Part shown: in pieces, positions 3,282-63,295 of the stretch
Layout of the letters: the number at the start of each line of letters is the position of its first letter
Numbering within the stretch: the stretch's first letter is position 1
Source: Lantana camara
Taxonomy: Eukaryota > Streptophyta > Magnoliopsida > Lamiales > Verbenaceae
Direction: 5' to 3'
Length of the DNA: 64,000 nucleotides
Assembly (NCBI GenBank): GCA_037501455.1
Contig: CM074860.1
Location: 49,672,501 to 49,736,500, forward strand
Translations under genes and position numbers: made by a program
The notes under the pieces: model-generated
Databases searched by the model: none
The model's input: only the letters and a program-made list of their open reading frames with translations
Told to the model about the DNA's origin: nothing

Positions 3282-6200
3282 TGTAGCGCCCGGAACGGTG
3301 GGCCACCACATCCCCCGCACCTAAACCCGAACCCACATATGAAATGAATTTCCATACATGAGCCCAAGTCTGAGCGAACAGGAACCTACACTCACGCGCT
3401 AGGCTAAGCGGGGCTACAACTCAAACAGAGCGCGCAAACAAACAATAAGAATGCGGAAGCAGCAACATAAGGATCGAAAAGGAGCTCTATACGAACATAT
3501 ACATCATATACAACGGCCTGACGGCCCAAAAATAGGTCAAGTATATACATCAAAAGTTCATAATCTCCGTAAGACATAATAAGAATTCAGATACAATTCA
3601 TAAAAGTAATCAAAATGCAGCAGGTAAATATGCCGACTCGACCTAAACTCGAAAGTACGACACGACCGACGCACTTCCCCGCCTAGCTCGAGAACCCTGC
3701 AACTAAAGTGTTAAACGGAAGGGGTCAGTCAAAACTCGACTGAGTGAGGGGGGCTAACGCACACCCACACCATAAATATGTAGAGAGCATAGCATAAAAT
3801 CAAAAGGGGTCGATCATGAACCGAGTTGGGGTTTTCATACCAAATCATTTTTAAAACATACATATAATACCAAGGAAATCCTAACTCGTTTCACAACTAC
3901 CAAAGCATAAAAGAAACATAAACGTCCGGCGAGTACGGACCTCCTCAACTCCTCATACAAATCATAAATACATAAGAATTCATAAATTCATAACTCCTCA
4001 ACGCCTTGGTGATCGGGAATCAAACCCTCTCAACCCATATGGATTCTATATACATACGGGGTAGCTAACCCACGATATGCCTTCCCCGGTTATTCACCGA
4101 GGGCTCAAGGTAATAGCGCCTTCTCAACCTCCAAGAGTCGCACGCCACCACCTCAAATGGGATGTGCACAGGCTTAACCCGACGGCCCTTGCCGTACCGG
4201 GGGTCCTTACCCACAATCCCTGGGCCCGGATTCATAAGAAACATGCCAATAACCCATCTTTCAGGGCACAACTCGCTGAATCATAAAGGAAACGTACAAA
4301 GGATTCAAAATCATAAGCTCATATATGCCCATACTTATACCGTTTTCATAAATTCGAAAAAGGGGATTCATAAAATCATAAACGTATCATAAGCATTCGT
4401 ATTTAACCATATAATACATATATAGTCACATGCGGGATAGGAAATCAATAACATAAAGGCCATAGGTCACTTATCTAAAAGAAAAGATCCTAACCCTCAC
4501 CTTGAAGTGGAAGCGGAGTGAAAATCGGACAAAAGAAGCAACCGGACCTAAACCTCGGGCTCTTTAACTTCCTGAAGAGGCTCTGAAACAAAAGAACGCA
4601 AGACCCGAGACTTAGACTCAAGTATGTACCACTTAGACGCTCGGAAATGCATATGTATGAAATGAATGCATATGAAATGCAAGAATGCATCATTTAGATC
4701 ATTTAAATTCAAAACACATACAAACCATATCAAATAAATTCATAAACGTAATTCCTAAAATATAACAAATAATTTAAATCATAAAATCACATTTCATACA
4801 TAAGAATTCATAGAGCCATATTTAATTTAAAACCTCAAATTAAATCATTTAAATTCATTTAATAAATCAAATAACATAATATATATATCATAATATATAT
4901 ATATATATCTATCTAAATATATATACACGTATTGCAGCCCCAAAAACAAACAATTAAAATCCTTCTCATGCATGTAAAGTCCATGCAAAGTTCCATTAAG
5001 TTAGGCCATGCATTGCACACGTTAACCACCCTGCACTTCCATCAATTATCATGCAAAATAGGAAACCATTGGAAACAATCCATGCATCATCCCTACATTA
5101 ACCATGCAAAACTGAAGAAATTCATGAAATGATCAGGTAATGAGCCAAGAAATCCCACGTAAACTCCATGAAAAATCACAAACAAACAACCATGCAAAAT
5201 CCAAAACTTATCATGCAAACTAGGAAAAAGAAGTAAAATATCCCAGCAGCAAATTCATCTCCCCGCCCAGGGGAGACAGTTCAGTCACGGAAGAAGGCGG
5301 AAATCACCCCTGTTCAGCCCTGCTTTCCTACCAATCAATTACCAACTCAATAAGGCATGTAAAGGCAGCAAAATCAGCAGCAAAACAGCACGACAACTTC
5401 CTTAAATCAGCTGGAAACGAACAGCAGCAGCAAAGGTAAAGAAAATGGCACCAACTCATGCTTATAACTCAACAAAAACTCAAGTATATTAAAGGTATCT
5501 CACCCAAATCACAACTACCACCCAAGTCAGCTATAATCAACAATAAATGAAGCACAAATGATCAATAATCCAGCTCCAATTCAAGCAAAACACCAAGGAA
5601 TGAGATGGAATTCAAAAATGGCAATAAAACCTAACTATTCATGTCTTGAATCAAAACTATATCAAACATGGATGAAAATCAGAATTTCTTAGATTAAAAT
5701 GACCACTTAATCATGTACATATCAAATACAAGCTTACCCTTTGAAGATGATGAAGGAAAATGAAGATTAGAGCTCAATCTCTTCAAGGTGTGAATAGTGA
5801 CGGGAATTCACTGCTGCTGCTCCAAAGTTCAGATTTTCCTCTCCTTTCTTGTGTATGGATCGAGATTAAGGCAGCAAAAAGTCATAAAGGACTGAGTTAG
5901 TGGAGTGTGGGTCCAGGTTTGAGGGCAATTGGCCAAGAATTGAGGGACTTATGTGCAAAATGGTGAAAGGTGGTCATATGAGCACGAGACGAAGTTACGG
6001 GCTGATTTCGGTGTATCAAATGAGGTCGAAAAATTACAAGGCCTGATCCATTGCACTCGAATCGTCGAAACGAGTTCAGCGGAGGTGACGGAATTCGAAT
6101 TCAAATTCCCGAGCTCAAGTTACACTACCCGGAACCCAAGGTGCGCTAAGTACATGTTAGCCTCCTTTAGGTTACTCCAACAAAACGAGTCCCGAAAACC

Positions 6201-6822
6201 CAACAATAAACCCGAAAACACATAACGAGCACATATTCAAGTTCACGACTCATAAAACTCCAACATATTAAAACGGCACGAAATTTCGATCTCAAATCGA
6301 ACACGAACGCATCACATTTCAACAAAAGAGCATGTCATTCCAATAATGAAATTCAAAACTCAAGAATTAATAAATAAATTAAAATAAAATAAATAAATAA
6401 AATAAAACAAAATTTTTTAACGAATTAAAATAAGTCAAATTTTTATTAAAAAGGTTATTTTCCAATTAAGTCCAATACTATTAAAAAGTGTCAAATAAGT
6501 CCAATTCAACTTTTCGATTAAGTCCAATATTAATTAAAATTGCACAATTAAGTCCTTAATTCATATAAATCACATAATTCACGAAATTAGCTTGTTCGGG
6601 AATTAAATTCACATATCATAAATTCATAAAATTCATATCATGAATCACTTGAGGCAAATTTCGACATATAATTCAAATATTTCATATAAATTCAAATAAT
6701 TCATATAAAAATTTCAATTAATAAAATATAAATCAATTAAATGCAACAATTAAAAATGAAATTAAAATAAATTAAATTGCGCACATACGTCATACCTGTA
6801 CGGTCGCGGAGTCGGGGTGTCA
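3282..6822 (-). repeat. B array LTR 1 (3' LTR of the left unit)
   Basis: 3541 bp. It reads TGTAGCGCCC at the left and GTGTCA at the right, so in element orientation it starts TGACACCCCG and ends GCTACA (TG...CA). It contains a palindrome TCTCCCC-GCCCA-GGGGAGA at 5258-5276, a stem CAGTC/GACTG at 3726-3742, a donor-like GTAAGC (minus strand, starting at 5737) and an acceptor-like TTGCAG (3707-3712). An AT-rich stretch with TA repeats lies near 4880-4925. No coding sequence is seen in it. Confidence 0.95.
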
Positions 6823-6840
6823 CAATCCTTCCCCCTTAAA
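6823..6840 (-). promoter_or_regulatory. Polypurine tract, left B unit
   Basis: On the minus strand TTTAAGGGGGAAGGATTG abuts the LTR start TGACACC. This is the expected plus-strand primer position. It lies 12 nt beyond the polyprotein stop codon. The same sequence occurs at 15050-15067 in the right unit. Confidence 0.85.
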
Positions 6841-6852
6841 AAGGACTTGCCC

Positions 6853-9800
6853 TCAAGTCCGGCTCGAGTCCTCAAACAACTCCGGATATAACCTTCTCAT
6901 TTTCTCCTCGGTTTCCCAAGTCGATTCCTCGGATTTCTGATCCCTCCAAAGTACCCTGACCAAAGGAATCTTCCGGTTTCTCAAATCTTGCATCTTCCCG
7001 TCCTGAATTGCAACCGGATGCTTTTCTATTGTCAAATCCGGCTCGAACTGAACCTCTTCAACTGGAAGAATTGTTGAGTCATCGGGATAATACTTACGGA
7101 GTTGAGAGACATGAAAAACATTATGTATCCCGGTCATACTTGGCGATAAATCCAATCTATATGCCGTTTCTCCGATTCTTTCCAAAATCTCAAACGGCCC
7201 AAGATAACGAGGACTAAGCTTCCCACCCTTACCTATACGAGTGAAGCCTTTTCTAGGAGACGCCTTCAAAAAGACTCTATCTCCGACTTCGAACTCTAAG
7301 GGCCTTCTTCTCTTATCGGCGTAACTCTTTTGACGGGCCTGAGCTGCTCTCATCCTTTGTCGAATCTTTTGAACTTTCTCAATAGTATCGGCAATCTTTT
7401 CCTTAGACTCGGCTCTCTCGAGTTTATTCTCTTCAGTCCACCTCCAATCCTCAATATCCCAAAATAGAGGAGATCTACACTTTTTTCCATAAAGTGCCTC
7501 ATACGGAGCCATCTTAATCGAACCCTGAAAGCTGTTGTTATAAGCAAACTCAACCAAAGGTAGGTGCTCATCCCACTTATCTTGGAAGTCCAAAGCACAC
7601 GCTCTGAGCATATCCTCTAAGTACTGAATTAGCCTTTCAGATTGGCCGTCTGTCTGAGGATGCGAAGCTGTGCTAAACTTGAGCTTAGTGCCCAAACACT
7701 TCTGAAGATTCTGCCAAAAGATCGAAGTAAACCGTGGATCCCGATCCGAAACAATACTAGCCGGAACTCCATGTAACCTTACAATCTCCCGAACGTACAA
7801 TTCGGCTAGCTTAGGAACTTTCTCAGACATCCGAACCTTGAGGAAATGGGCAGACTTAGTTAATCTGTCCACAATTACCCATATTCCATCAAACCCTCCT
7901 CTAACTCTAGGCAAGCCGGACACGAAGTCCATCGTCACTTGCTCCCACTTCCACTCGGGAATAGGAAGTGGTTGGAGAGTTCCTCCCGGCTTCTGGTGCT
8001 CTGCCTTCACCTTTTGACACGTTAGACACCGCTTCACGAAGTTCGCGACGTCCCTTTTCATGCCATTCCACCAGAATTTCTCTTTCAGGTCCCGATACAT
8101 CTTAGTACCTCCTGGACGAATCGAGTACCTCGAGCGATGTGCCTCCTCAAGTATAATCCTCTTGAGCTCTTCTGGAACACATATTCTTGCTTCAAACCTT
8201 AACAATCCGGAATCATCAATCCCAAACTTAGAATTTGTATCATCCTTAGAACGAGTTACCAACTTTTGAATTTCCACATCTAAATTCTGAGCTTCCAACA
8301 ACTGTTGTTTCAAATCTGGTATTACTGTAAGATTGGCCAACCAAGTTCCCGAAACCAAGATCTCTGAACCCGAACTTGAAGAACCTGCTTCCAAATTAGC
8401 TACACTCACCTTTCTACTCAAGACATCGGCTACCACGTTTGCTTTACCTGGATGGTACTGAATGGTGCAATCGTAATCCTCTAATAATTCCATCCAACGT
8501 CTCTGTCTTACATTCAAATCTTTCTGAGAAAAGAGATACTTGAGGCTTTGGTGATCCGTAAATACCTCGAAGGTGGTACCATAAAGGTAGTGTCGCCACT
8601 TCATCAAAGCGAACACAACGGCAGCTAATTCGAGATCGTGGGTAGGGTAATTCTTCTCATGCTCCTTCAACTTTCTTGAAGCATAAGCTACCACTCTACC
8701 GTGCTGCATCAAAACACAACCAAGACCCTCTTTCGAAGCATCTGTATACACTGCATAACCCTCGGTACCCTCGGGTAGGGTAAGAACTGGTGCTGAAGTT
8801 AACTTCACTTTCAAAGTCTGAAAACTCGCATCACACTTATCATCCCATTCAAATTTCATTTCCTTCTTAGTCAGACGAGTCAACGGGGCGGCGATTTTAG
8901 AGAAATCCTTAACAAATCTACGGTAGTAACCGGCCAACCCAAGAAAACTTCGGATCTCTGAGACATTTTTCGGTCTCTCCCAACGAAGCACGGACTCAAC
9001 CTTAGATGGATCAACTTCAATCCCATCACCTGAAATTATATGCCCCAAAAACATAACTCGGTCGATCCAGAATTCGCACTTGCTGAACTTTGCATACAAC
9101 TTATGTTCCCTCAAAGTTTCCAAGACGATCCGTAGATGTTGGGCATGCTCTTCAGCCGACCTTGAATACACCAGAATGTCGTCTATAAAGATCACCACGA
9201 ACTTGTCAAGAAAAGGCCTGAACACTCGGTGCATCATGTCCATAAAAACGGCTGGAGCGTTGGTTAATCCAAATGGCATGACAACAAATTCAAAGTGCCC
9301 ATATCTTGTGTTAAAACCAGTCTTCGGAATATCTTCTTCCCTAATTCGCAGCTGATAATAGCCTTGCCTCAAATCTAACTTGGAGTAGACTTTCGAGCCT
9401 TGCAGAATATCAAATAACTCCTCGATGTGAGGCAAAGGGTATTTGTTCTTCACAGTCATCCGATTCAACTTACGGTAGTCTATACACATTCGTAGCGTTC
9501 CATCCTTCTTCTTTACAAATAGAACGGGAGCCCCCCACGGAGAAATGCTCGGACGGATGTAACCGCAAGCTAGAAGCTCATCAAGCTGTGTCTTTAACTC
9601 CTTTAACTCTGCAGGAGCCATTCTATAGGGAGTCTTCGAAAAAGGCTCTGCTCCGGGATAAAGGTCGATTACGAACTCGATGTCCCTATCGGGTGGCAAA
9701 GAACCCAATGTCTCAGGGAATACATCGGCATACTCCCGCACGACCTCCGTCTCCTCAAGTTTGGCCTGATCCTTCGGTCTATTCAAAAGATAGGCCACGA

Positions 9801-11316
9801 AACCTATCGCACCGTCCCGGACCAGTTTACTCGCCTCAACGAAAGAAATAAATGGGCTTGACTTCACCTTCTCGCCCTTAAACACCACTGAACCAAAAGA
9901 AACTTTCTTCTCCCGACAATCCATCTGAGCCCCATGTTCAGATAACCAATCCATTCCTAGGATTACGCCATACCTCTTCATCGGCATCTTAATCAAATCG
10001 GCGAGAAAAACTCTATCTTCAAAACTCACTGGACAACCCCGATAAATCCTGCAAGTAACAAGACTACCGCCAAGAGGCGAACTAACCACATAATCATGCG
10101 TACAGAGGGTAACAGGCAAGCACAACGAAGAAGCAAGATCCCGAGAAATAAAGGAATGAGATGCCCCGGGATCGAACAATGCATGAAATGTAGTGCCATG
10201 AATGCTTACGGTACCTTCAATCAAGGCATTAGGATCAAGATCTGCAGCTTCCTCTTCCTCAGCCCCGAGTGCATAAGCTCTAGCCTGAATTGCGGGCCTC
10301 TGATTGTTCCCCGCTGCCTGTCCTGGCCTTTTGTTCGAGCATTGATTAAGCATGTGATCCGGCGAGCCACAACCGTAGCACCTCTTGTGAAGTTTGAAGC
10401 AATTTTCAACGAGATGATTACCCTTGCAATATTTGCATTGGACTTGAGGTGGTGCTGGTAATGCTAGAGGTTGAGCCTTTTGTCCTGTTGGCTTAAATTG
10501 CTTGTTTTGAGGCTTTGCCGGTGTAAAAGCTTGGTAAGCCGGCCTCTTTCCATATTTGTTCTGACCTCCCGAGCTAGAACCCTGTACGGCCTGAGAAGTC
10601 CTCCTCCTCCTAGCAACCACTCGATCCTCCACTTTCAAAGCCTTCTCGGTGACTAACGCCCAAGTGTCGGTATCAACCGCTTCGAGTGCATCCTTCATAT
10701 CTTCTCTTAAACCTCGAAGAAACTTCAAAGCCTTGTGGCGGTCATCGTTGGCAATGTTGGGAGCATATCTTGACAAACGGTCGAACTCATCAATGTATTC
10801 GGTGACCGTCTTCTCATCTTGTTTCAAGTCCATGAACTCTTGGAGTCTTCGGTCCCTAGCGGCGATTGGAATGTACTTGTTACGAAACTCCCGAGTGAAT
10901 GTTTCCCAATTAATCTCATCACCGGCGGCATCCAAACGGGCTCGGATGCTAGTCCACCAACTATAAGCCTGACCTTGCACCATCGTGAGGGTGCACCTTA
11001 CCTTCTCAACCGATTCACACGGTATCAATTCCCAAATTCTCTCTATTTGAATTAGCCACTCCTCGGCTTGGATATCATTCCCACCTTCAAACTTGGGGGG
11101 GTTCTGATTCCTAAACTCCCGTAGAATGTGAGTGACTTGCCCTCCTTCGTGATTGACAACCGGAGGTGTATTTTGGCGATACCGAGTATCCAAATATGCA
11201 CATAATCTTGCCATGAATCCCTCAGGTTCCATGTTGTTCTCGGCTTGTGGGGAACGATCCCGGTGATGTCTATGGCCCGGAGACCTGTCACGGTGATGAT
11301 CTCTTCTCGGAGGCAT
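6853..11316 (-). CDS. gag-pol: Ty3/gypsy chromovirus gag-pol polyprotein, left copy
   Basis: Single uninterrupted frame. An upstream in-frame ATG at 11340 would give 1495 residues. I prefer the ATG at 11316 because the MPPRR start is usual for plant gypsy Gag. Residues below count from the upstream ATG. Gag spans about 40-250, with two CCHC knuckles at 302-314 (spacing CX2CX3HX4C) and 321-334. The protease motif is D390-P-G-A-S. Reverse transcriptase carries FIDD at 718-721. RNase H has D867, E904 and D929. Integrase has an HHCC zinc domain (H1068, position 1075, C1105, C1108) and a D1138, D1199, E1235 core. A chromodomain-like end lies at about 1440-1491, typical of the Tekay/Del clade. Position 1075 is Arg here, where the family and the sister copy have His, so zinc binding by this integrase is probably impaired. 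It differs from the right copy at six residues by eye. Confidence 0.97.
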
Positions 11317-11490
11317 CCTACAAAATCCAAAGAATTCCAATATACATGCGTGCGGTTAGTACATGACCATGTGCACAATTCATAAAAATTCAAGTAAATG
11401 AGGCACATAAATGCACATAACCACATTGTCCTAATCCGAACGACCTAGACAAACCAACACGACCCTAGAGCTTCGGTTTTGCAACAGAGA

Positions 11491-11502
11491 GCTCTGATAC
11501 CA
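11491..11502 (-). promoter_or_regulatory. Primer binding site, left B unit (initiator Met tRNA)
   Basis: The minus strand reads TGGTATCAGAGC, 8 nt from the LTR edge at 11511. The spacing matches elements A and C. Its end can pair with an AGAGCT copy at 11467-11472, forming a stem with TTGCAAAA in the loop. Confidence 0.92.
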
Positions 11503-11510
11503 CTTTAAGA

Positions 11511-14500
11511 TGTAGCGCCCGGAACGGTGGGCCACCACATCCCCCGCACCTAAACCCGAACCCACATATGAAATGAATTTCCGTACATGAGCCCAAGTCT
11601 GAGCGAACAGGAACCTACACTCACGCGCTAGGCTAAGCGGGGCTACAACTCAAACAGAGCGCGCAAACAAACAATAAGAATGCGGAAGCAGCAACATAAG
11701 GATCGAAAAGGAGCTCTATACGAACATATACATCATATACAACGGCCTGACGGCCCAAAAATAGGTCAAGTATATACATCAAAAGTTCATAATCTCCGTA
11801 AGACATAATAAGAATTCAGATACAATTCATAAAAGTAATCAAAATGCAGCAGGTAAATATGCCGACTCGACCTAAACTCGAAAGTACGACACGACCGACG
11901 CACTTCCCCGCCTAGCTCGAGAACCCTGCAACTAAAGTGTTAAACGGAAGGGGTCAGTCAAAACTCGACTGAGTGAGGGGGGCTAACGCACACCCACACC
12001 ATAAATATGTAGAGAGCATAGCATAAAATCAAAAGGGGTCGATCATGAACCGAGTTGGGGTTTTCATACCAAATCATTTTTAAAACATACATATAATACC
12101 AAGGAAATCCTAACTCGTTTCACAACCACCAAAGCATAAAAGAAACATAAACGTCCGGCGAGTACGGACCTCCTCAACTCCTCATACAAATCATAAATAC
12201 ATAAGAATTCATAAATTCATAACTCCTCAACGCCTTGGTGATCGGGAATCAAACCCTCTCAACCCATATGGATTCTATATACATACGGGGTAGCTAACCC
12301 ACGATATGCCTTCCCCGGTTATTCACCGAGGGCTCAAGGTAATAGCGCCTTCTCAACCTCCAAGAGTCGCACGCCACCACCTCAAATGGGATGTGCACAG
12401 GCTTAACCCGACGGCCCTTGCCGTACCGGGGGTCCTTACCCACAATCCCTGGGCCCGGATTCATAAGAAACATGCCAATAACCCATCTTTCAGGGCACAA
12501 CTCGCTGAATCATAAAGGAAACGTACAAAGGATTCAAAATCATAAGCTCATATATGCCCATACTTATACCGTTTTCATAAATTCGAAAAAGGGGATTCAT
12601 AAAATCATAAACGTATCATAAGCATTCGTATTTAACCATATAATACATATATAGTCACATGCGGGATAGGAAATCAATAACATAAAGGCCATAGGTCACT
12701 TATCTAAAAGAAAAGATCCTAACCCTCACCTTGAAGTGGAAGCGGAGTGAAAATCGGACAAAAGAAGCAACCGGACCTAAACCTCGGGCTCTTTAACTTC
12801 CTGAAGAGGCTCTGAAACAAAAGAACGCAAGACCCGAGACTTAGACTCAAGTATGTACCACTTAGACGCTCGGAAATGCATATGTATGAAATGAATGCAT
12901 ATGAAATGCAAGAATGCATCATTTAGATCATTTAAATTCAAAACACATACAAACCATATCAAATAAATTCATAAACGTAATTCCTAAAATATAACAAATA
13001 ATTTAAATCATAAAATCACATTTCATACATAAGAATTCATAGAGCCATATTTAATTTAAAACCTCAAATTAAATCATTTAAATTCATTTAATAAATCAAA
13101 TAACATAATATATATATCATAATATATATATATATCTATCTAAATATATATACACGTATTGCAGCCCCAAAAACAAACAATTAAAATCCTTCTCATGCAT
13201 GTAAAGTCCATGCAAAGTTCCATTAAGTTAGGCCATGCATTGCACACGTTAACCACCCTGCACTTCCATCAATTATCATGCAAAATAGGAAACCATTGGA
13301 AACAATCCATGCATCATCCCTACATTAACCATGCAAAACTGAAGAAATTCATGAAATGATCAGGTAATGAGCCAAGAAATCCCACGTAAACTCCATGAAA
13401 AATCACAAACAAACAACCATGCAAAATCCAAAACTTATCATGCAAACTAGGAAAAAGAAGTAAAATATCCCAGCAGCAAATTCATCTCCCCGCCCAGGGG
13501 AGACAGTTCAGTCACGGAAGAAGGCGGAAATCACCCCTGTTCAGCCCTGCTTTCCTACCAATCAATTACCAACTCAATAAGGCATGTAAAGGCAGCAAAA
13601 TCAGCAGCAAAACAGCACGACAACTTCCTTAAATCAGCTGGAAACGAACAGCAGCAGCAAAGGTAAAGAAAATGGCACCAACTCATGCTTATAACTCAAC
13701 AAAAACTCAAGTATATTAAAGGTATCTCACCCAAATCACAACTACCACCCAAGTCAGCTATAATCAACAATAAATGAAGCACAAATGATCAATAATCCAG
13801 CTCCAATTCAAGCAAAACACCAAGGAATGAGATGGAATTCAAAAATGGCAATAAAACCTAACTATTCATGTCTTGAATCAAAACTATATCAAACATGGAT
13901 GAAAATCAGAATTTCTTAGATTAAAATGACCACTTAATCATGTACATATCAAATACAAGCTTACCCTTTGAAGATGATGAAGGAAAATGAAGATTAGAGC
14001 TCAATCTCTTCAAGGTGTGAATAGTGACGGGAATTCACTGCTGCTGCTCCAAAGTTCAGATTTTCCTCTCCTTTCTTGTGTATGGATCGAGATTAAGGCA
14101 GCAAAAAGTCATAAAGGACTGAGTTAGTGGAGTGTGGGTCCAGGTTTGAGGGCAATTGGCCAAGAATTGAGGGACTTATGTGCAAAATGGTGAAAGGTGG
14201 TCATATGAGCACGAGACGAAGTTACGGGCTGATTTCGGTGTATCAAATGAGGTCGAAAAATTACAAGGCCTGATCCATTGCACTCGAATCGTCGAAACGA
14301 GTTCAGCGGAGGTGACGGAATTCGAATTCGAATTCCCGAGCTCAAGTTACACTACCCGGAACCCAAGGTGCGCTAAGTACATGTTAGCCTCCTTTAGGTT
14401 ACTCCAACAAAACGAGTCCCGAAAACCCAACAATAAACCCGAAAACACATAACGAGCACATATTCAAGTTCACGACTCATAAAACTCCAACATATTAAAA

Positions 14501-15049
14501 CGGCACGAAATTTCGATCTCAAATCGAACACGAACGCATCACATTTCAACAAAAGAGCATGTCATTCCAATAATGAAATTCAAAACTCAAGAATTAATAA
14601 ATAAATTAAAATAAAATAAATAAATAAAATAAAACAAAATTTTTTAACGAATTAAAATAAGTCAAATTTTTATTAAAAAGGTTATTTTTCAATTAAGTCC
14701 AATACTATTAAAAAGTGTCAAATAAGTCCAATTCAACTTTTCGATTAAGTCCAATATTAATTAAAATTGCACAATTAAGTCCTTAATTCATATAAATCAC
14801 ATAATTCACGAAATTAGCTTGTTCAGGAATTAAATTCACATATCATAAATTCATAAAATTCATATCATGAATCACTTGAGGCAAATTTCGACATATAATT
14901 CAAATATTTCATATAAATTCAAATAATTCATATAAAAATTTCAATTAATAAAATATAAATCAATTAAATGCAACAATTAAAAATGAAATTAAAATAAATT
15001 AAATTGCGCACATACGTCATACCTGTACGGTCGCGGAGTCGGGGTGTCA
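11511..15049 (-). repeat. B array LTR 2 (shared middle LTR)
   Basis: 3539 bp, TG...CA ends in element orientation. It serves both as 5' LTR of the left unit and 3' LTR of the right unit. It differs from LTR 1 by one fewer TA step near 13130 and a few substitutions, and from LTR 3 by a few substitutions and a 13-bp segment that LTR 3 lacks. The palindrome TCTCCCC/GGGGAGA is at 13485-13503. Confidence 0.95.
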
Positions 15050-15067
15050 CAATCCTTCCCCCTTAAA
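15050..15067 (-). promoter_or_regulatory. Polypurine tract, right B unit
   Basis: Identical to the tract at 6823-6840. It abuts the middle LTR and lies 12 nt beyond the polyprotein stop. Confidence 0.85.
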
Positions 15068-15079
15068 AAGGACTTGCCC

Positions 15080-18000
15080 TCAAGTCCGGCTCGAGTCCTC
15101 AAACAACTCCGGATATAACCTTCTCATTTTCTCCTCGGTTTCCCAAGTCGATTCCTCGGATTTCTGATCCCTCCAAAGTACCCTGACCAAAGGAATCTTC
15201 CGGTTTCTCAAATCTTGCATCTTCCCGTCCTGAATTGCAACCGGATGCTTTTCTATTGTCAAATCCGGCTCTAACTGAACCTCTTCAACTGGAAGAATTG
15301 TTGAGTCATCGGGATAATACTTACGGAGTTGAGAGACATGAAAAACATTATGTATCCCGGTCATACTTGGCGATAAATCCAATCTATATGCCGTTTCTCC
15401 GATTCTTTCCAAAATCTCAAACGGCCCAAGATAACGAGGACTAAGCTTCCCACCCTTACCTATACGAGTGAAGCCTTTTCTAGGAGACGCCTTCAAAAAG
15501 ACTCTATCTCCGACTTCGAACTCTAAGGGCCTTCTTCTCTTATCGGCGTAACTCTTTTGATGGGCCTGAGCTGCTCTCATCCTTTGTCGAATCTTTTGAA
15601 CTTTCTCAATAGTATCGGCAATCTTTTCCTTAGACTCGGCTCTCTCGAGTTTATTCTCTTCAGTCCACCTCCAATCCTCAATATCCCAAAATAGAGGAGA
15701 TCTACACTTTTTTCCATAAAGTGCCTCATACGGAGCCATCTTAATCGAACCCTGAAAGCTGTTGTTATAAGCAAACTCAACCAAAGGTAGGTGCTCATCC
15801 CACTTATCTTGGAAGTCCAAAGCACACGCTCTGAGCATATCCTCTAAGTACTGAATTAGCCTTTCAGATTGGCCGTCTGTCTGAGGATGCGAAGCTGTGC
15901 TAAACTTGAGCTTAGTGCCCAAACACTTCCGAAGATTCTGCCAAAAGATCGAAGTAAACCGTGGATCCCGATCCGAAACAATACTAGCCGGAACTCCATG
16001 TAACCTTACAATCTCCCGAACGTACAATTCGGCTAGCTTAGGAACTTTCTCAGACATCCGAACCTTGAGGAAATGGGCAGACTTAGTTAATCTGTCCACA
16101 ATTACCCATATTCCATCAAACCCTCCTCTAACTCTAGGCAAGCCGGACACGAAGTCCATCGTCACTTGCTCCCACTTCCACTCGGGAATAGGAAGTGGTT
16201 GGAGAGTTCCTCCCGGCTTCTGGTGCTCTGCCTTCACCTTTTGACACGTTAGACACCGCTTCACGAAGTTCGCGACGTCCCTTTTCATGCCATTCCACCA
16301 GAATTTCTCTTTCAGGTCCCGATACATCTTAGTACCTCCCGGATGAATCGAGTACCTCGAGCGATGTGCCTCCTCAAGTATAATCCTCTTGAGCTCTTCT
16401 GGAACACATATTCTTGCTTCAAACCTTAACAATCCGGAATCATCAATCCCAAACTTAGAATTTGTATCATCCTTAGAACGAGTTACCAACTTTTGAATTT
16501 CCACATCTAAATTCTGAGCTTCCAACAACTGTTGTTTCAAATCTGGTATTACTGTAAGATTGGCCAACCAAGTTCCCGAAACCAAGATCTCTGAACCCGA
16601 ACTTGAAGAACCTGCTTCCAAATTAGCTACACTCACCTTTCTACTCAAGACATCGGCTACCACGTTTGCTTTACCTGGATGGTACTGAATGGTGCAATCG
16701 TAATCCTCTAATAATTCCATCCAACGTCTCTGTCTTACATTCAAATCTTTCTGAGAAAAGAGATACTTGAGGCTTTGGTGATCCGTAAATACCTCAAAGG
16801 TGGTACCATAAAGGTAGTGTCGCCACTTCATCAAAGCGAACACAACGGCAGCTAATTCGAGATCGTGGGTAGGGTAATTCTTCTCATGCTCCTTCAACTT
16901 TCTTGAAGCATAAGCTACCACTCTACCGTGCTGCATCAAAACACAACCAAGACCCTCTTTCGAAGCATCTGTATACACTGCATAACCCTCGGTACCCTCG
17001 GGTAGGGTAAGAACTGGTGCTGAAGTTAACTTCACTTTCAAAGTCTGAAAACTCGCATCACACTTATCATCCCATTCAAATTTCATTTCCTTCTTAGTCA
17101 GACGAGTCAACGGGGCGGCGATTTTAGAGAAATCCTTAACAAATCTACGGTAGTAACCGGCCAACCCAAGAAAACTTCGGATCTCTGAGACATTTTTCGG
17201 TCTCTCCCAACGAAGCACGGACTCAACCTTAGATGGATCAACTTCAATCCCATCACCTGAAATTATATGCCCCAAAAACATAACTCGGTCGATCCAGAAT
17301 TCGCACTTGCTGAACTTTGCATACAACTTATGTTCCCTCAAAGTTTCCAAGACGATCCGTAGATGTTGGGCATGCTCTTCAGCCGACCTTGAATACACCA
17401 GAATGTCGTCTATAAAGATCACCACGAACTTGTCAAGAAAAGGCCTGAACACTCGGTGCATCATGTCCATAAAAACGGCTGGAGCGTTGGTTAATCCAAA
17501 TGGCATGACAACAAATTCAAAGTGCCCATATCTTGTGTTAAAACCAGTCTTCGGAATATCTTCTTCCCTAATTCGCAGCTGATAATAGCCTTGCCTCAAA
17601 TCTAACTTGGAGTAGACTTTCGAGCCTTGCAGAATATCAAATAACTCCTCGATGTGAGGCAAAGGGTATTTGTTCTTCACAGTCATCCGATTCAACTTAC
17701 GGTAGTCTATACACATTCGTAGCGTTCCATCCTTCTTCTTTACAAATAGAACGGGAGCCCCCCACGGAGAAATGCTCGGACGGATGTAACCGCAAGCTAG
17801 AAGCTCATCAAGCTGTGTCTTTAACTCCTTTAACTCTGCAGGAGCCATTCTATAGGGAGTCTTCGAAAAAGGCTCTGCTCCGGGATAAAGGTCGATTACG
17901 AACTCGATGTCCCTATCGGGTGGCAAAGAACCCAATGTCTCAGGGAATACATCGGCATACTCCCGCACGACCTCCGTCTCCTCAAGTTTGGCCTGATCCT

Positions 18001-19543
18001 TCGGTCTATTCAAAAGATAGGCCACGAAACCTGTCGCACCGTCCCGGACCAGTTTACTCGCCTCAACGAAAGAAATAAATGGGCTTGACTTCACCTTCTC
18101 GCCCTTAAACACCACTGAACCAAAAGAAACTTTCTTCTCCCGACAATCCATCTGAGCCCCATGTTCAGATAACCAATCCATTCCTAGGATTACGCCATAC
18201 CTCTTCATCGGCATCTTAATCAAATCGGCGAGAAAAACTCTATCTTCAAAACTCACTGGACAACCCCGATAAATCCTGCAAGTAACAAGACTACCGCCAA
18301 GAGGCGAACTAACCACATAATCATGCGTACAGAGGGTAACAGGCAAGCACAACGAAGAAGCAAGATCCCGAGAAATAAAGGAATGAGATGCCCCGGGATC
18401 GAACAATGCATGAAATGTAGTGCCATGAATGCTTACGGTACCTTCAATCAAGGCATTAGGATCAAGATCTGCAGCTTCCTCTTCCTCAGCCCCGAGTGCA
18501 TAAGCTCTAGCCTGAATTGCGGGCCTCTGATTGTTCCCCGCTGCCTGTCCTGGCCTTTTGTTCGGGCATTGATTAAGCATGTGATCCGGCGAGCCACAAC
18601 CGTAGCACCTCTTGTGAAGTTTGAAGCAATTTTCAACGAGATGATTACCCTTGCAATATTTGCATTGGACTTGAGGTGGTGCTGGTAATGCTAGAGGTTG
18701 AGCCTTTTGTCCTGTTGGCTTAAATTGCTTGTTTTGAGGCTTTGCCGGTGTAAAAGCTTGGTAAGCCGGCCTCTTTCCATATTTGTTCTGACCTCCCGAG
18801 CTAGAACCCTGTACGGCCTGAGAAGTCCTCCTCCTCCTAGCAACCACTCGATCCTCCACTTTCAAAGCCTTCTCGGTGACTAACGCCCAAGTGTCGGTAT
18901 CAACCGCTTCGAGTGCATCCTTCATATCTTCTCTTAAACCTCGAAGAAACTTCAAAGCCTTGTGGCGGTCATCGTTGGCAATGTTGGGAGCATATCTTGA
19001 CAAACGGTCGAACTCATCAATGTATTCGGTGACCGTCTTCTCATCTTGTTTCAAGTCCATGAACTCTTGGAGTCTTCGGTCCCTAGCGGCGATTGGAATG
19101 TACTTGTTACGAAACTCCCGAGTGAATGTTTCCCAATTAATCTCATCACCGGCGGCATCCAAACGGGCTCGGATGCTAGTCCACCAACTATAAGCCTGAC
19201 CTTGCACCATCGTGAGGGTGCACCTTACCTTCTCAACCGATTCACACGGTATCAATTCCCAAATTCTCTCTATTTGAATTAGCCACTCCTCGGCTTGGAT
19301 ATCATTCCCACCTTCAAACTTGGGGGGGTTCTGATTCCTAAACTCCCGTAGAATGTGAGTGACTTGCCCTCCTTCGTGATTGACAACCGGAGGTGTATTT
19401 TGGCGATACCGAGTATCCAAATATGCACATAATCTTGCCATGAATCCCTCAGGTTCCATGTTGTTCTCGGCTTGTGGGGAACGATCCCGGTGATGTCTAT
19501 GGCCCGGAGACCTGTCACGGTGATGATCTCTTCTCGGAGGCAT
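15080..19543 (-). CDS. gag-pol: Ty3/gypsy chromovirus gag-pol polyprotein, right copy
   Basis: Intact frame of the same length and domain order as the left copy: Gag, two zinc knuckles, DPGAS protease, reverse transcriptase with FIDD, RNase H, HHCC-DDE integrase, chromodomain-like end. An in-frame ATG lies upstream at 19567; I chose 19543 (MPPRR). All zinc and catalytic residues I can identify are present, including His at position 1075 (codon 16343-16345). The six differences from the left copy are at 335 (Pro here, Ser there), 512 (Thr/Ile), 1075 (His/Arg), 1213 (Arg/Gln), 1336 (His/Arg) and 1432 (Leu/Phe). With flanking LTRs, primer site and polypurine tract intact, this unit looks structurally competent for transposition. 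Its 5' LTR (LTR 3) carries a 13-bp deletion of unknown effect. Activity itself is not shown by sequence. Confidence 0.98.
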
Positions 19544-19717
19544 CCTACAAAATCCAAAGAATTCCAATATACATGCGTGCGGTTAGTACATGACCATGTG
19601 CACAATTCATAAAAATTCAAGTAAATGAGGCACATAAATGCACATAACCACATTGTCCTAATCCGAACGACCTAGACAAACCAACACGACCCTAGAGCTT
19701 CGGTTTTGCAACAGAGA

Positions 19718-19729
19718 GCTCTGATACCA
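19718..19729 (-). promoter_or_regulatory. Primer binding site, right B unit (initiator Met tRNA)
   Basis: TGGTATCAGAGC on the minus strand, 8 nt from the LTR edge at 19738; the same arrangement as at 11491-11502. Confidence 0.92.
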
Positions 19730-19737
19730 CTTTAAGA

Positions 19738-22700: not shown

Positions 22701-23265
22701 CTCCAACATATTAAAACGGCACGAAATTTCGATCTCAAATCGAACACGAACGCATCACATTTCAACAAAAGAGCATGTCATTCCAATAATGAAATTCAAA
22801 ACTCAAGAATTAATAAATAAATTAAAATAAAATAAATAAATAAAATAAAACAAAATTTTTTAACGAATTAAAATAAGTCAAATTTTTATTAAAAAGGTTA
22901 TTTTTCAATTAAGTCCAATACTATTAAAAAGTGTCAAATAAGTCCAATTCAACTTTTCGATTAAGTCCAATATTAATTAAAATTGCACAATTAAGTCCTT
23001 AATTCATATAAATCACATAATTCACGAAATTAGCTTGTTCGGGAATTAAATTCACATATCATAAATTCATAAAATTCATATCATGAATCACTTGAGGCAA
23101 ATTTCGACATATAATTCAAATATTTCATATAAATTCAAATAATTCATATAAAAATTTCAATTAATAAAATATAAATCAATTAAATGCAACAATTAAAAAT
23201 GAAATTAAAATAAATTAAATTGCGCACATACGTCATACCTGTACGGTCGCGGAGTCGGGGTGTCA
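19738..23265 (-). repeat. B array LTR 3 (5' LTR of the right unit)
   Basis: 3528 bp. It is the outermost 5' LTR in element orientation and starts TGACACCCCG at 23265. Compared with LTR 2 it lacks 13 bp near 22426, between two AG dinucleotides that look like microhomology, and has a few substitutions. The palindrome TCTCCCC/GGGGAGA is at 21714-21732. The right flank is TAGGT. Confidence 0.95.
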
Positions 23266-36550: not shown

Positions 36551-36859
36551 GCTCTCCTGGCCAGGTCCTCCTTAGTGAGGGCACTGGGCTAGTCTTAGAG
36601 CTGGTGGTTGTCCGTCCAACCACAGGAAGAACAATACCCTATCGTGTGCATATGTTCTCTTGGCCAGGTCCTTCTCAGTGAGGGCGCTGGGCTGGTCTTC
36701 CGGCTGGTGGTTGTCCGTCCAATCACAAGAAGAACAAAGCCCTATCGTGTACCTGTGTTCCCCTGGTCAGGTTCTCCTTAGTGAGGGCGCTGGGCTAGTC
36801 TTAGAGCTGGTGGTTGCCCGTCCAACCACAGGAGGAACAAACCCTATCGTGTTACAAGC
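36551..36859 (+). repeat. Three 103-bp tandem repeats in LTR E
   Basis: Units start at 36551, 36654 and 36757 with exactly 103 bp between starts. Each contains CTGGCCAGGTCCT or a variant, GTGAGGGCGCTGGGCT, CTGGTGGTTG and CCCTATCGTGT. Divergence between units is moderate. Confidence 0.93.
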
Positions 36860-47300: not shown

Positions 47301-47690
47301 TTAGATGGAGAAGATGACACTGCTAACAATATAAAAGGTGAACCCTCTGAATGTACATTAGGAAAGAGCAAGAGAAATACAAAATCAAAAGCGTGGGACT
47401 ACTTCGGGCTGTACATTAGGGCTGTTTTTACTTATTTGGAGCCTCAAGTAGTTCACTTTACTAGGAATACAGCTAGGGCTGATGTGATGAAACTTTATAA
47501 AATGGAAAAGAACAAACTTGTGCAAGAATTGCGTTCAATCAAGGGGAAAATCTGTTTTACTACGGATTTATGGACTTCCATAGCCACTGATGGATATATT
47601 TGTTTGACTACTCATTATGTTAATTATGATTGGACATTGCAAAAAAGAACACTACAAAAAAATTTACTTTTTGTGACAAAGTTCTTGTGA

Positions 47691-48115
47691 CGATATATAT
47701 GATTGTCACATTAGGTTAGTCTTTCATGACGATAATTAATTTTGTCACGACAAAATTGAATTTTTTATGACAAAACTTCTATTTGTCACTAAAGTATTAA
47801 ACTTATACGACAAATTAAAATTTGTCATAATACGTTTGTGACGATATATATGGTTGTCACATTAGGTTAGTCTTTCATGACGATAATTAATTTTGTCACG
47901 ACAAATTTGAATTTTTTATGACAAAACTTCTATTTGTCACTAAAGTATTAAACTTATACGGCAAATTAAAATTTGTCATAATACGTTTGTGACGATATAT
48001 ATGATTGTCACATTAGGTTAGTCTTTCATGACGATAATTAATTTTGTCACGACAAAATTGAATTTTTTATGACAAAACTTCTATTTGTCACTAAAGTATT
48101 AAACTTATACGTTTG
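47691..48115 (+). repeat. Three tandem copies of a ~150-bp sub-terminal unit of the CACTA element
   Basis: Units start at 47691, 47841 and 47992, the third truncated near 48113. Each begins with ACGATATATATG-like sequence and contains several TTTGTCAC and ATGACAAAA motifs. Copies are over 95% alike by eye, so the amplification is recent. Confidence 0.9.
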
Positions 48116-53900: not shown

Positions 53901-54257
53901 AGTGTCTGATGTCTGAAGTTCAGACCACAATTGCCAATTCTATAGTTTTCTTTGTTTTGGAATAACACAATTTATGTTTGAAGTTCATAGCAGAAATGCA
54001 GGTACAAGTTGTTTGTATTTCATTGCTCAAGTGCAGGAACAATTTCTTTGATTTATCGGGTCGGGTCGGGTCAATTCAGGTGGCTCAGGTCATCGGGTTG
54101 ACCTGAAAATTTTCAGGTCGACCCGAACCCAACCCGAACCCGGTAGGTTCAGGTTCGGGTTGACCTTCCCGTGTTCGTTTCGGGTTCGGGTTGGGATTTT
54201 TTCTGTAATACCCCCACCTCAACCTGACCCACCTGAATTGACACCCCTACTTTTATT

Positions 54258-56758: not shown

Positions 56759-59700
56759 TGTAGCACCCGAGCGTAAGGTACCACATCCCCCGCACCGAGA
56801 CCCGACCCGTATATGTAATGGAAGTCCATACACGTGCCAAATCACGACGAACGGGGACACAACACACAAGCTATGCTAGGGGGGAGCTAACCCTTAATCC
56901 ATTCAAGGATACGATAATATAAAATCAGAGTGAAAACAAAATGCGGAAGCAAATATTAACATATATATCATACCACAAGCTACCAAGCTCCAAAATAGAC
57001 ACACAAGTTCTAATCAAGTATTCCATAGCCCACACGGCCTAACAAAATTATATATGCTCCATATACAAAATCATATACAAAATAGAGTATGAATATGAGT
57101 GAAACATGAAGAGAGTGCTAAACACTAATGCAAGACCTAGACAACTTGTATTCCCGCCTAACACTCCTTAACCTGCACAAAACCACTGAAAAACAAACCG
57201 GGTTCAGTTTATAGGACACTGGTGGGTATAAAACAGGGCATAAGTATAAATATCGTGGAATTTAAACACATACATGTAAGCCATAATCCGGTATGAAGTT
57301 TTACAAAATTTCCCAAGTGGGTAAAACAAGAAGAACATCTACGGGATTACAACTATAATATTCATTCATATTTAAACATAGGGTTTTATGGCCCAGCGAG
57401 TGGGCGTGCACAATCTCTAACCTACTCCTTGTGTAATCATAACGTAATTCATTGTTTATCACTCATATATCTTTCGTGCACATCCATATCATGATCATAA
57501 TCATATACATACACCTTTTTCCTCCGGGTGGTGGACGGGTTTGCAAGGCCCGACCACCTATACATATCATTGTAGCTAGTGGGGTACATTAATCCTCAAA
57601 AGCCTGGTTCACTTTCCTCATCAAAACTCCTAACGAGGTTGGTTTTGCCGTAAATTTGGTTGGAACTAGTATATGGGATCACTGTCGGCCCTTGCCTCCT
57701 TGGGTAGCCACATACACTAAGTCCCTGGGTCCCGTGTTTTCATATCATGCTCTCGCCAAAATCATAGGTAGGATTTCATAAAAGAAAGGTTTACATTTGA
57801 AATCATTTACTCAAGAAAAGACTCGATATATAAATATACTAATTTGGCTCAAATCCTTTCACATAAGGGTATATTAGGTTGTCATAGCTATCAGAAGAGA
57901 AACGCACCTTAAAGTATCAAAAGAAAGACACAAGCGTCTCAAGGCTCGCCCTCATCTCCGACCGTACCCAAATCTGTGCAAAAGAGAAGGTATAAGACTC
58001 AAAATGACCATATATAACACACGACATGCTATGTTCATTCTATGAGATGCATAACAAGTAAAATGATGCCATGAAGTCATGAAATCAAGCAATTCATTCA
58101 ATAAGTGCAAGTATATTCAATACATGAAAGTTTCATATTTAAACGAGTTCATATCTTTCATATTTCATATCAAATTAATTCACGAATTTCATATATCTAT
58201 CATAACACATACTTTAACATGTATACAATTCATATGAATCATAAAAGAAGGTAAAAGTTATCATTTAGGGTTCACAATCCAAGTATCAAAGCATTCACGC
58301 ACGTTATGGAGCAATAAAGGCACGTTCATGCATAACTCGGAAAATAATCATCCAAATCAAGAAAATTCGCAACACACAAGATAACACATTATATGACATG
58401 TTAATGAAGTGTATGAACCAAAAATGAACCGAGAAAACCATGGAAAACATGTTAAAATTTTGAAATCTCATGCATGATATGAGAGGGTCGCGGCCGCAAC
58501 CCATTTCCTTCATGAAATGGTAGCGGCCGCTACCTCCAATTTTCAGCAAATAAGTCCAGATTTCTCGAGGGTCAAAACATGCTCAAAATATGGTCACGGG
58601 GGCGACCTAAAATGCACTGATTTTGGTCACGGGCGCGACCAATAAATCAAGGACAAATAACTTTGCAGCCGTGGTCGCGACCAAGAATGAACTTGGCGCG
58701 ATCGCGGCCTTGACATGCACACCCAACAGAAAATTTCACGCAGCAACAGGTCTGGAAGCTCCCCAACACAAACACCAACAATTAGACAACATAAAGATGA
58801 ATGAAAGAGCAACAAAACATCATGAAGTCAGTCCCTAAACAAGCCACAACCGCTGCACGAATCCAAACATGAGCAAGGAAGGAGAAAAGATCAAGTTTCA
58901 CCAATTTCATTCAAACTTCATTAATGGTATCTCATTTATTACTCAACCACCATATAATAAAAGTCCATAGGGATTAAAGTAGATGTCTTAGGATCAACTT
59001 TCATACATTAAACAAAAGGAATCACAAGGAAACAAGGATAATCAACATATGAGCTCAAAACCTTACTATTCACACATTTCATCAAAGCATGCTCAAAAAT
59101 CCATGAAATTCAGAGATTAAGGTGTCAAAAGGAAGAGGAGAAGGTGGAGAATAACATCCTTAGCTTACCTTTCGAATATAGAGTGAAACGGACGAGAATT
59201 AAGCTCTTGAAGGTGAAAGTGAATAGTATTCTTTTTCTTCTCCAAAGGGGTCTCGGTTTGCAGCTGAGTTTAGGCCTAGTTTTGTGAGTGAAATGGAATG
59301 AGAGACAATTTGGCTGATCAAGGGTTAAGTTAGCTTCAAGTGGGTGCAAGTTTCACTCAATTTGGTTAACTATGGTTCAAGATATGGTTAAAAAGGTGGA
59401 GGGTGATCATTTTAGCGAGATGTCATGTTTCGGGTGAAATTCGGGGGTCCAAACGAGAATAGAAAAATATGAGCTTGGATCATTGACCCAAATCATCGAT
59501 ACAAGTCCAGTGGAGTTGACGGAACTCGAATTCGAGCTCCCGAGCTCAAGATATGCCGCCCGGAACCGGAGGTACGCTAGATGCCCTTTAACCCCCATTT
59601 CGGTCCCGTCTCCAAAATAAAATTCAAAACCACATCAAACGAGATCGAAAACATAAAATGAGCATATAAACATGTTCATAACACATAAATCTACAACATA

Positions 59701-59935
59701 CTAAATTTACACAAAAACCAAAAATCAAATCATATAGAAATGGCACGCGATCAAGTCACATAAAAGCATAACGTTCAAGATGTCATAGAAATTCATATTA
59801 ATAAATTCATATATTCAAAGAATTAATAATTTAAAATAAGAATAGAATATATAAATGCATAATTAAATTAATTTAAATGCGTAAATAGTTATCACATAAA
59901 TCATACTTGTACGACTGAAAAGTCGGGGCGTTACA
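56759..59935 (-). repeat. Solo LTR G
   Basis: 3177 bp, + strand TGTAGCACCC to GGGGCGTTACA. Flanks CACAT (56754-56758) and CGCAT (59936-59940) match at 4 of 5, consistent with an old target duplication with one change. No internal sequence remains. It contains the palindrome cluster (58485-58704), a donor-like GTAAGC (minus strand, starting at 59168) and an acceptor-like GTGCAG (57173-57178). Lineage shared with C and H. Confidence 0.9.
58485..58704 (-). repeat. Six GC-rich palindromes in LTR G
   Basis: GGGTCGCGGCCGCAACCC (58485-58502, one CpG-type mismatch). GGTAGCGGCCGCTACC (58519-58534, perfect). GGTC...GACC forms at 58592-58607 and 58623-58642. TGGTCGCGACCA (58672-58683, perfect). A CGCGATCGCG core near 58697-58706. 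Confidence 0.92.
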
Positions 59936-61094: not shown

Positions 61095-62935
61095 TGTAGC
61101 ACCCGAGCGTAAGTTACCACATCCCCCGCACCAAGACCCAACCCGTATATGAAATGGAAGTCCATACACGTGCCAAATCCACGGCGAACGGGGACACAAC
61201 ACACACGCTATGCTAGGCGGGACTAACCCTTAAACCATTCAATCTCAAGACAATGTCAAATCAGAGCTAAAGTAAAACGCGGAAGCAAGAACCACATATA
61301 ATATATACGATGAGCCACCAAGCTCCAAAAATAGATATACAAAAGTATTCAAGTATTCAAGTATTCAAGGCCACACGGCCTACAATATCATAACGCTCCA
61401 TATCAAAATCATATACAGAATGGTAATAAGAGTATGAGACCAAAATGAAGTGCTAAACAACAATGTAAAAACCTAGATGCCTTGTATTCCCGCCTAGCAC
61501 TCCTATGCCTGCACAAAACAACTGAAAACAAACCGGGTTCAGTCTAAAAGAGACTGGTGGGTACAAAAGCGGGGCATAAGTATAAATATCGCAGAATTGA
61601 AACATATACATGCAAGCCCTAATCCCATAGAAGTTTGATAAGCAATTTCCTAGCGGCAAAACAAAGAAAACATCAATGGGATTACGACTATCATTTTTAT
61701 TCATAATTAACATAAGGTTTAAGGCCCGGCGAGTGGGCGTGCATCATCTCCAACCTTCTCCTCGTGTAATCATATTCATAAATTCATAAGTTTTCATACA
61801 TAACATATGTGCACATACATAATGATCATAATCATTCATATACACCTTCTTCCTCCAGTGGTGGGCGAGTTTGCAAGACTCGACCACCTCATACATAATG
61901 GCTAGTGAGGTACATGAATCCTCAATAGCCCGACTAGCGTTTTCTCGTCAAAACTCCTAACGAGATCCGTTTCGACGTAAAATGGTTGGAACTAGTGCAA
62001 GGGTTCACCGTCGGCCCTTGCCTCCCCGGCTCCCCACAATACACTAAGCTCCGTGGCCCGTGATCATATCATACATGCAATCTCGCCAAAACATAAGGTA
62101 GGTGTGCATAAAGGAAAGGTTATACGTTTGAAATCATTTACTCGAGAAAAGACTCAATATATATGTATAATCATATTGTTTTGGCTTAAAACTTGTCACA
62201 TAGGGAAATATATCGGTCAATTCATATCTAATAGAAGAAAAACCCACCTTTCAAACAAAAGATCGACACAAGCGTCTCAAGGCTCGCCTACGTCTCCGAC
62301 CGAACCCAAATCTGTACAAAAGAAAGGTATGAGACTCAATAACCACATATGACGCTCGGCAATGAAGTGAATATGACATGAATGCATAAAGGATCATGTT
62401 ATATCATAAAAATGTTCATGTGCACTATTAAGGAATTTAAAACGTATAATCGAACCATTCGTTCATATATTTAATTCAAATTCATAAATTCATAATTCCT
62501 ATTAATTTAATCTAAAATTCCATTTAATGTTCATAACACTTAACATTCATATTTTCAATTAGGAATAAAAGAAATAAAACGTTCAAACAATAGTCGGTAA
62601 TTTAAATACGCAAAATAGAAATCAACTAATTCTAAAATTGAATTAAATCAAATAATATTTAAAATAACATATAATAAATATAATATATACTAATTATATA
62701 TATATACATATATATACATATATTTATATATCATACGTATATACATATAAATTACATAAATACATGCATGCATGACTTAATCTAATATATATATATTACA
62801 TATATGCATGTAAATTACATAAATATATACATGCATAATCACACACACTCGTGCACTCAACACTCATGCACACATGCATGCACAAACAATGCCCCCATTT
62901 TCATGCATATACTTATACACACACGCACACACTCC

Positions 62936-62938
<3 letters not shown>

Positions 62939-62977
<39 letters not shown>
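62939..62977. repeat. TA dinucleotide microsatellite
   Basis: Uninterrupted TA run inside LTR H, next to CA-rich low-complexity sequence. Confidence 0.95.
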
Positions 62978-62978
<1 letters not shown>

Positions 62979-63140
62979 TCACGCACACACACAAGGAATA
63001 ACAGCAACAACAGCTACACAACACACACACACTCCTAGCAACACCAAGAAGGAAGGAGCAGCAGCAGGAGAAGAGAAAGAAAAGGAAAAGAATGAAGAAG
63101 AAGATCAGACGCAGCAACAGCAGACTTTCGGCAGAAAACA

Positions 63141-63295
63141 GGGGTCGCGGCCGCGACCCCTTTCCTTCCCGAAATGGTAGCGACCGCTACCAGGATTTTT
63201 CGGAATTTTTGAGCAATTAACAGAATACGTGAACAGCCTACTGTTCAGTCGTGGGCGCGACTGAAATTAAGGGAAATAAGGTCGCGGGCGCGACC
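63141..63295 (-). repeat. Four GC-rich palindromes in LTR H
   Basis: GGGGTCGCGGCCGCGACCCC (63141-63160, perfect 20 bp). GGTAGCGACCGCTACC (63176-63191, one mismatch). CAGTCGTGG/GCGCGACTG (63246-63263). GGTCGCGGGCGCGACC (63280-63295, central mismatch only). Confidence 0.94.

Follow-up and report, generated by a model that had tools for sequence, protein, structure and literature searches.

What are the short GC-rich palindromes that recur in the long terminal repeats (LTRs) of several related retrotransposon families, and would they act as DNA or as RNA? The question is raised by a stretch of 64,000 nucleotides (G000:C6:49672501-49736500, hereafter the window) from a genome of 1.27 Gb in 378 contigs, which is largely made up of LTR retrotransposons and looks plant-like as far as its sequence allows one to judge. 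A first-pass annotation had reported palindromes in six LTR families, labelled B, C, D, E, G and H, and had considered a hairpin or a dimeric binding site. The palindromic boxes are found to be real, abundant and structured, with a common CGG signature and a pairing rule of 31-34 bp. We give about an even chance to the reading that they are cis-regulatory sites acting at the DNA level in Ty3/gypsy LTRs of chromovirus-like type, read in pairs by putative protein dimers.

Inventory and enrichment of the boxes

The places first given for the palindromes (5258, 13485 and 21714 in B, 31500-31624 in C, 38539 in D, 35888-36084 in E, 58485-58704 in G and 63141-63295 in H) were correct, and the clusters exist; the number of boxes had to be revised to six in E, four in C, six in G (some decayed) and four in H, mostly paired. 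On the forward strand, the E array (35889-36085) consists of GGGAACG-type boxes with centre spacings of 32, 48, 32, 37 and 32 bp. The remaining arrays lie on the reverse strand, namely the TCCCCG-type boxes of C (31499-31622; spacings 32, 45 and 31), the GGTCGCG/GGTAGCG boxes of G (58486-58709; spacings 33, 73, 33, 42 and 27) and the GGTCGCG/GGTAGCG/AGTCG boxes of H (63143-63295; spacings 33, 71 and 33). G and H each carry both arm variants, GGTCGCG and GGTAGCG, with AGTCG as an addition in H. Single copies had been reported for B and D. Each of the three B LTR copies indeed carries a lone TCTCCCC-type palindrome on the reverse strand (5258-5276, and alike at 13485-13503 and 21714-21732), and D has one good box of the CTCTACCC type on the forward strand (38539-38558) together with a weak match 34 bp further on. 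B and D are weak members, because B has a single box, D one good copy, and neither region folds more stably than its shuffles (z -0.4 and 0.0, sense strand).

GC-rich palindromes above a fixed score were counted in chosen cluster regions and in 300 dinucleotide shuffles of each. Four were present in E (shuffle mean 0.17), three in C (0.16), two in G (0.09) and four in H (0.09), and the shuffle maximum was two in every region, so that at the lowest score cut none of the 300 shuffles reaches the count of E, C or H, and G ties with the maximum. The whole window holds 28 such palindromes against a shuffle mean of 4.9 (12 shuffles, maximum 12). Comparison with shuffled sequences, which had been proposed as a test, thus puts all four regions well over the mean of their shuffles. 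These counts rule out a chance origin of the palindromes.

Genome-wide, the exact 16-mer GGGAACGGCCGTTCCC has 15,128 matches (backwards control 0), the symmetric GGTCG box GGTCGCGNNCGCGACC has 7,763 (control 2) and GGTCGCGGCCGCGACC has 2,022 (control 1); the first two arm types together amount to more than 20,000 exact boxes in one genome. Among 20 stretches of 10 kb taken at set places on C1-C6, seven contain GGGAACG arrays.

A CGG signature with family-specific arms

The core was analysed by collecting, from all sequence in the analysis, every CGNNCG flanked by five perfect pairs (n=116, homologous copies included), a test that presupposes the CGNNCG core itself. The centre is GC, AC/GT or CC/GG in 114 of the 116 symmetric sites and GA/TC in one more; consequently one or both halves read CGG in 115 of 116, compared with 133 of 407 non-symmetric sites. 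A freely varying CGNNCG core was discarded on this ground. The centres GGCC, GCCC and GGGC reported earlier are seen, but GACC and GGTC occur as well, and CGG in at least one half fits the sites better. The outer arms vary by family while the CGG signature holds: GGGAA, GGTCG, GGTAG, AGTCG, CTCCC, CTACC, GTACC, GTCCC and CAACA are found among the symmetric sites, and there is a further ATCC type with asymmetric inner bases.

Pairing of the boxes

Spacings were taken from 57 clusters, each with at least two sites of which at least one had 0-1 mismatch. The 195 adjacent spacings comprise 116 of 31-34 bp, two of 20-30, 40 of 35-60 and 37 above 60 bp. When consecutive spacings are considered (n=138), exactly one of the two is 31-34 bp in 134 cases, neither in four and both in none; the boxes are therefore arranged as pairs, not as runs. 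By eye, 56 of the 57 clusters have at least one spacing of 31-34 bp, and this range accounts for 39 of the 65 spacings among 18 representatives picked by hand, against a mean of 5.6 (sd 2.2, maximum 15) over 20,000 random placements. The rule also appears when the arms are disregarded: exact palindromes gave 39 distances between neighbours in the range 16-60 bp, and 26 of these are 32-34 bp.

The spacing is shared by different arm types, at 31-33 bp for GGGAACG, 33-34 for GGTCGCG, 31-32 for TCCCCG, 31 for CTACCCG (L035) and 31-33 for the ATCC type, and the spacer letters differ among them. Different arms and unrelated spacers obeying one rule form the independent part of the pairing evidence. 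Further examples are the series 31-45-31 in L035 and 33-77-33-79-33 in L053, while L001 has a GGGAACG array of 31-42-32 and, further along that LTR, an ATCC array that again includes a 32. Exact GGGAACG pairs with a gap of 4-34 bp number 14,863 in the genome (backwards control 0); the first 50 plus-strand pairs listed, all from C1 below 4.5 Mb, comprise 25 at 32 bp, 14 at 42-44 and 11 at 47-49. Tandem duplication of a box-plus-spacer unit was considered as the source of the pairs and is ruled out by the differing spacer letters and by the lack of three-box runs. The pairing rule is the new part of the finding.

As a separate observation, L001:1403-1670 and L011:8934-9220 each contain adjoining arrays, GGGAACG followed by the ATCC type, both with 32-bp spacing.

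Symmetry under change and turnover of the arms

Alignment of six lineages across four homologous boxes shows boxes that are conserved and spacers that drift. For covariation, 19 four-box sets were available, of which 11 were kept after removal of three near-duplicates and five of uncertain orientation; several half-changed boxes are among the sets dropped (e.g. L053, L055 and L057). The 11 lineages have Watson-Crick pairing at 281 of 308 box pairs; column shuffles, which ignore relatedness, give 273.5. The gain stems from two positions, pair 1 of S3 (eight G-C, three A-T, none mismatched) and pair 4 of S4 (six A-T, four C-G and one C-T mismatch). A larger collection of 91 sites, background matches included, has 59 with pairing at arm position 4 (45.3 expected) and 71 with pairing at position 1 (63.6 expected). 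The earlier suggestion that symmetry outlasts the letters is borne out at these two pairs of the 11 four-box lineages, where double changes occur with almost no broken intermediates. The converse, an arm that changes without its partner, had been named as evidence against that suggestion and is encountered in part: besides the 7,763 symmetric GGTCG sites, 1,238 sites genome-wide (587 and 651 per strand) join one GGTAG half to one GGTCG half, the symmetric GGTAG counterpart of both being GGTAGCGNNCGCTACC.

Could the palindromes be without function, spread and kept perfect by copying through quasipalindrome correction, template switching or LTR recombination? LTR segments do appear to have been swapped as modules. 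L036, with GGTCG/GGTAG boxes, and L040, which carries those of the CTCTCCCCG type, share 85% identity along 394 bp that reach into the putative exon 2, and part of the arm turnover seems to result from the swap of an entire 5' LTR segment, in this pair of sequences and likewise in L038/L040. Arrays are, moreover, inherited together with their spacing. A copying mechanism, however, predicts neither the CGG rule, nor pairs without triplets, nor boxes that are conserved while spacers drift. The outward growth of symmetry that it does predict is weak, with 14 of 28 at the next pair beyond the 16-mer (11.0 expected, P 0.04), 12 at the second (8.7, P 0.09) and a joint P of 0.21 for pairs 6-8; outward-growing symmetry as a sign of hairpin selection or of correction is rejected on these values. 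We regard an origin by copying, with no function, as quite improbable.

Position within the LTR

The palindromes had been placed downstream of a donor-like site in all six LTRs, a weaker one in C. This holds for B, D, E, G and H, where the first measured box lies 367-491 nt downstream of it; in C none was identified. Counted within the LTR, the box position varies from 694 to 1548 (B, C, D, E and G). Across their 146-236 bp, the box clusters have a GC content of 0.50-0.59 and a CpG observed/expected ratio of 0.74-1.29; GC within the LTR peaks there or close by.

All six LTRs also contain an exon-2-like island of about 48-81 nt, preceded by AG and followed by AAG/GTG or CAG/GTG, the slash marking the boundary (e.g. 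1956-2022 in the sense of G), and further on a second acceptor-like site, TGCAG/G. The sequence suggests a spliced leader, with a leader intron within the LTR. In the 3' third of the same LTRs there is a long-range inverted repeat like GCTAGGCGGG ... CCCGCCTAGC, with arms 254-301 nt apart and in some cases degenerate. A short hairpin of the form CAGTC-loop-GACTG, followed by A and CCC, was seen by eye immediately before the second acceptor-like site in B, C, D and H, its stem letters being family-specific. No match to Rfam at gathering thresholds and no tRNA was found.

What may read the boxes

Each box can be described as two inverted half-sites of about 8 bp, with a family-specific outer arm and an inner CGG, which would be read by a putative protein dimer. 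The working unit would be two boxes 31-34 bp apart, or about three helical turns, such that two dimers would sit on one face of the DNA. An array of one to four such pairs is likely to serve as a platform for enhancement or repression in the 5' part of the LTR, within the apparent leader intron, and the protein bound there might come from the host or from the element. As between a hairpin and a dimeric site, the two options first considered, the evidence leans towards the dimeric DNA site owing to the pairing at 31-34 bp. DNA-binding dimers acting in pairs are favoured over an RNA hairpin because the pairing extends across arms and spacers, wobble gives no clear signal and half-changed arms are tolerated; the CGG rule supports the DNA reading as well.

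Several points weigh against paired protein dimers. The boxes lie downstream of the donor-like site, and no TATA box could be established just after them, unlike in Sireviruses. A two-box GTACCCG cluster in L007 has a spacing of 91 bp and no spacing of 31-34 at all. Related arrays inherit their spacing by descent, and the counts above hence express prevalence, not independent events; the spacing from one pair to the next has no helical phasing. As RNA, the E, C, G and H regions form very stable folds on both strands (z -5.7 to -8.6), and the asymmetric centres lean to the sense strand, with 31 GCCC/GACC against 11 GGGC/GGTC. Finally, no plant protein of the box specificity was identified, and a literature search for a CGG-reading LOB-domain factor gave nothing usable among the matches listed.

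Some of these points would fit an RNA dimerisation or packaging signal. Boxes past the donor-like site would be kept only in unspliced genomic RNA, where their self-complementary arms could pair RNAs within a family, and this would explain why the arms are family-specific. The location of the boxes in five LTRs, past the donor-like motif and before the exon-2-like island, is consistent with such a role, and so are the strong folding of the four arrays, the compensatory changes and the sense lean of the centres. In yeast, Ty3 RNA dimerises in vitro via a 5' palindrome (PMC11381356). Stable folding is, on the other hand, expected of any palindrome cluster, and B and D barely fold. A flexible RNA has no obvious need for a spacing of 31-34 nt, and the splicing that the scheme presupposes is itself conjectural. 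Counts on the sense strand give 21 G-U against 15 A-C, no significant excess (the orientation of L048, L052, L053 and L060 being uncertain, here and in the count of asymmetric centres), and selection for pairing in the sense RNA is rejected as far as wobble counts can tell. The 1,238 half-changed sites, too, carry C-T or A-G mismatches. We consider an RNA dimerisation or packaging signal unlikely.

The stable folds of these four arrays bear also on a further possibility, that the boxes form a hairpin template for small RNAs by which the host recognises the element and from which the letters drift to escape. Palindrome-rich LTR regions of Sireviruses in maize are described as small-RNA hotspots (PMC10760457, PMC5311732), whereas maize Ty3 elements are generally portrayed as having no obvious structure peak (PMC10760457). 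Such a template would leave the upkeep, the pairing and the CGG centring of the boxes unexplained, and we regard it as very unlikely.

Host elements and other features of the window

The host elements are Ty3/gypsy, with chromovirus-like LTRs, by the sequence of their coding regions and repeats. B is a tandem array of LTR-internal-LTR-internal-LTR on the reverse strand (LTR copies at 3280-6823, 11510-15050 and 19737-23265) with two polyprotein reading frames of 1500 aa; the one at 6853-11355 encodes gag, protease, reverse transcriptase (RT), RNase H, integrase and SH3_Tf2-1, and in the B polyprotein, the one examined for this order, RT-RNase H precedes integrase, as in Ty3/gypsy. Its C-terminal match to Pfam Chromo is weak (23.3 bits, E 5.9e-5), slightly under the cut-off of 25.1. 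The three B LTRs and two internal regions (3280-23265) are at least 99% identical, and the array is apparently inserted into an element A.

The LTRs C, D, E, G and H come from related families; for instance, the B and G LTRs share 63% identity over 882 bp. All six may belong to the Tekay clade, a name used here as a lead rather than as a phylogenetic placement. On the forward strand, the D LTR (35078-40827) is split by the insertion of E, a solo LTR (35141-37578) nested within it with the target duplication AGTTA. On the reverse strand lie the C LTR (29624-32317), followed by the primer-site-like sequence TGGTATCAGAGC, the G LTR (56759-59935), solo by appearance, and the H LTR (61095-64000), the 5' part of which runs past the window.

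Elsewhere in the genome, L002, L003 and L019 have a gypsy pol reading frame directly followed by an LTR with GGGAACG boxes. For six GGTCG-type LTRs no pol was found within 2.2 kb upstream, and their class consequently rests on LTR similarity. An element at L005:1-8784 has 2.7-kb LTRs that are 99.7% identical and an internal part weakly matching the B polyprotein (in its gag and gag-protease part); from its sequence it is likely to be non-autonomous and recent. The window further contains a tandem repeat with a 151-bp period in three copies (47661-48113) and a long palindrome, TCGGGTTGACCTGAAAATTTTCAGGTCGACCCGA (54093-54126), which lies outside the LTRs under study.

Comparison with known systems

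The present results extend symmetric CGG-CCG boxes from the LTRs of Ty1/copia Sireviruses to those of Ty3/gypsy elements. They add a quantitative grammar, namely boxes paired at 31-34 bp, one or both halves reading CGG, and free outer arms. This grammar could be used directly to search for the binding protein and to ask if a DNA-binding family changes in step with the transposon families. Clusters of palindromes with hairpin potential, together with small-RNA evidence, were reportedly described in copia LTRs in a 2016 study; they resemble the present ones as LTR palindrome clusters capable of forming hairpins and differ in that the hosts here are Ty3/gypsy.

The first-pass annotation knew of no described equivalent. 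One has in fact been described, as the LTRs of Sireviruses carry symmetric repeated motifs (RM), in all but one of 13 with a CGG-CCG signature (PMC2829016, Bousios et al. 2010). Their consensus differs per element, and they cluster in CpG islands upstream of the TATA box (PMC2829016). In the account given there, the likeness to the present boxes covers short dyad-symmetric palindromes present several times per LTR (B here being single), family-specific arms, a common CGG-CCG signature and a local GC/CpG peak. Differences are equally apparent. The hosts here are Ty3/gypsy and not Ty1/copia, and CGG and CCG are adjacent (CGGCCG), whereas many of the Sirevirus consensus motifs have intervening bases. 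The present boxes lie past a donor-like site with no TATA box established, unlike the Sirevirus clusters just upstream of a conserved TATA box. Pairing at 31-34 bp is a further difference, no such rule having been found in the parts of PMC2829016 consulted or under a term search of its text. As to copy number, 2-8 boxes were counted per cluster here, the figure for Sireviruses being at least eight per element.

Other systems are more distant. The symmetric box I of Tnt1, a dyad-symmetric regulatory sequence of a plant retrotransposon, is alike in its dyad symmetry, but belongs to a different element class and is described in PMC2829016, as far as consulted, with no paired CGG-CCG array. The dimerisation palindrome of yeast Ty3 is similarly located, near the 5' end of the element; by the parts of PMC11381356 consulted it is 6 nt long and acts as RNA, in contrast to an array of paired 16-mers. 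Among the matches listed by a literature search on palindromes in Tekay, gypsy or chromovirus LTRs, judged by titles and abstract openings, nothing else alike was present, which is not proof of absence as subscription literature lay largely outside the search; papers listed as containing the 16-mer or its halves as letter strings were apparently unrelated by title.

By analogy, the Ty3/gypsy boxes probably work like the Sirevirus RM boxes, of whose family they are not members on account of their host element. CGG-anchored inverted sites may then have been adopted by plant retrotransposons of both Ty3/gypsy and Ty1/copia type. In the elements described here they would be organised as strict pairs, three helical turns apart, read by a dimer of dimers, with arm specificity diverging by family while the CGG contact and the geometry stay fixed; tentatively, and with considerable doubt, we would see in this a regulator-operator system in coevolution with the transposon families.

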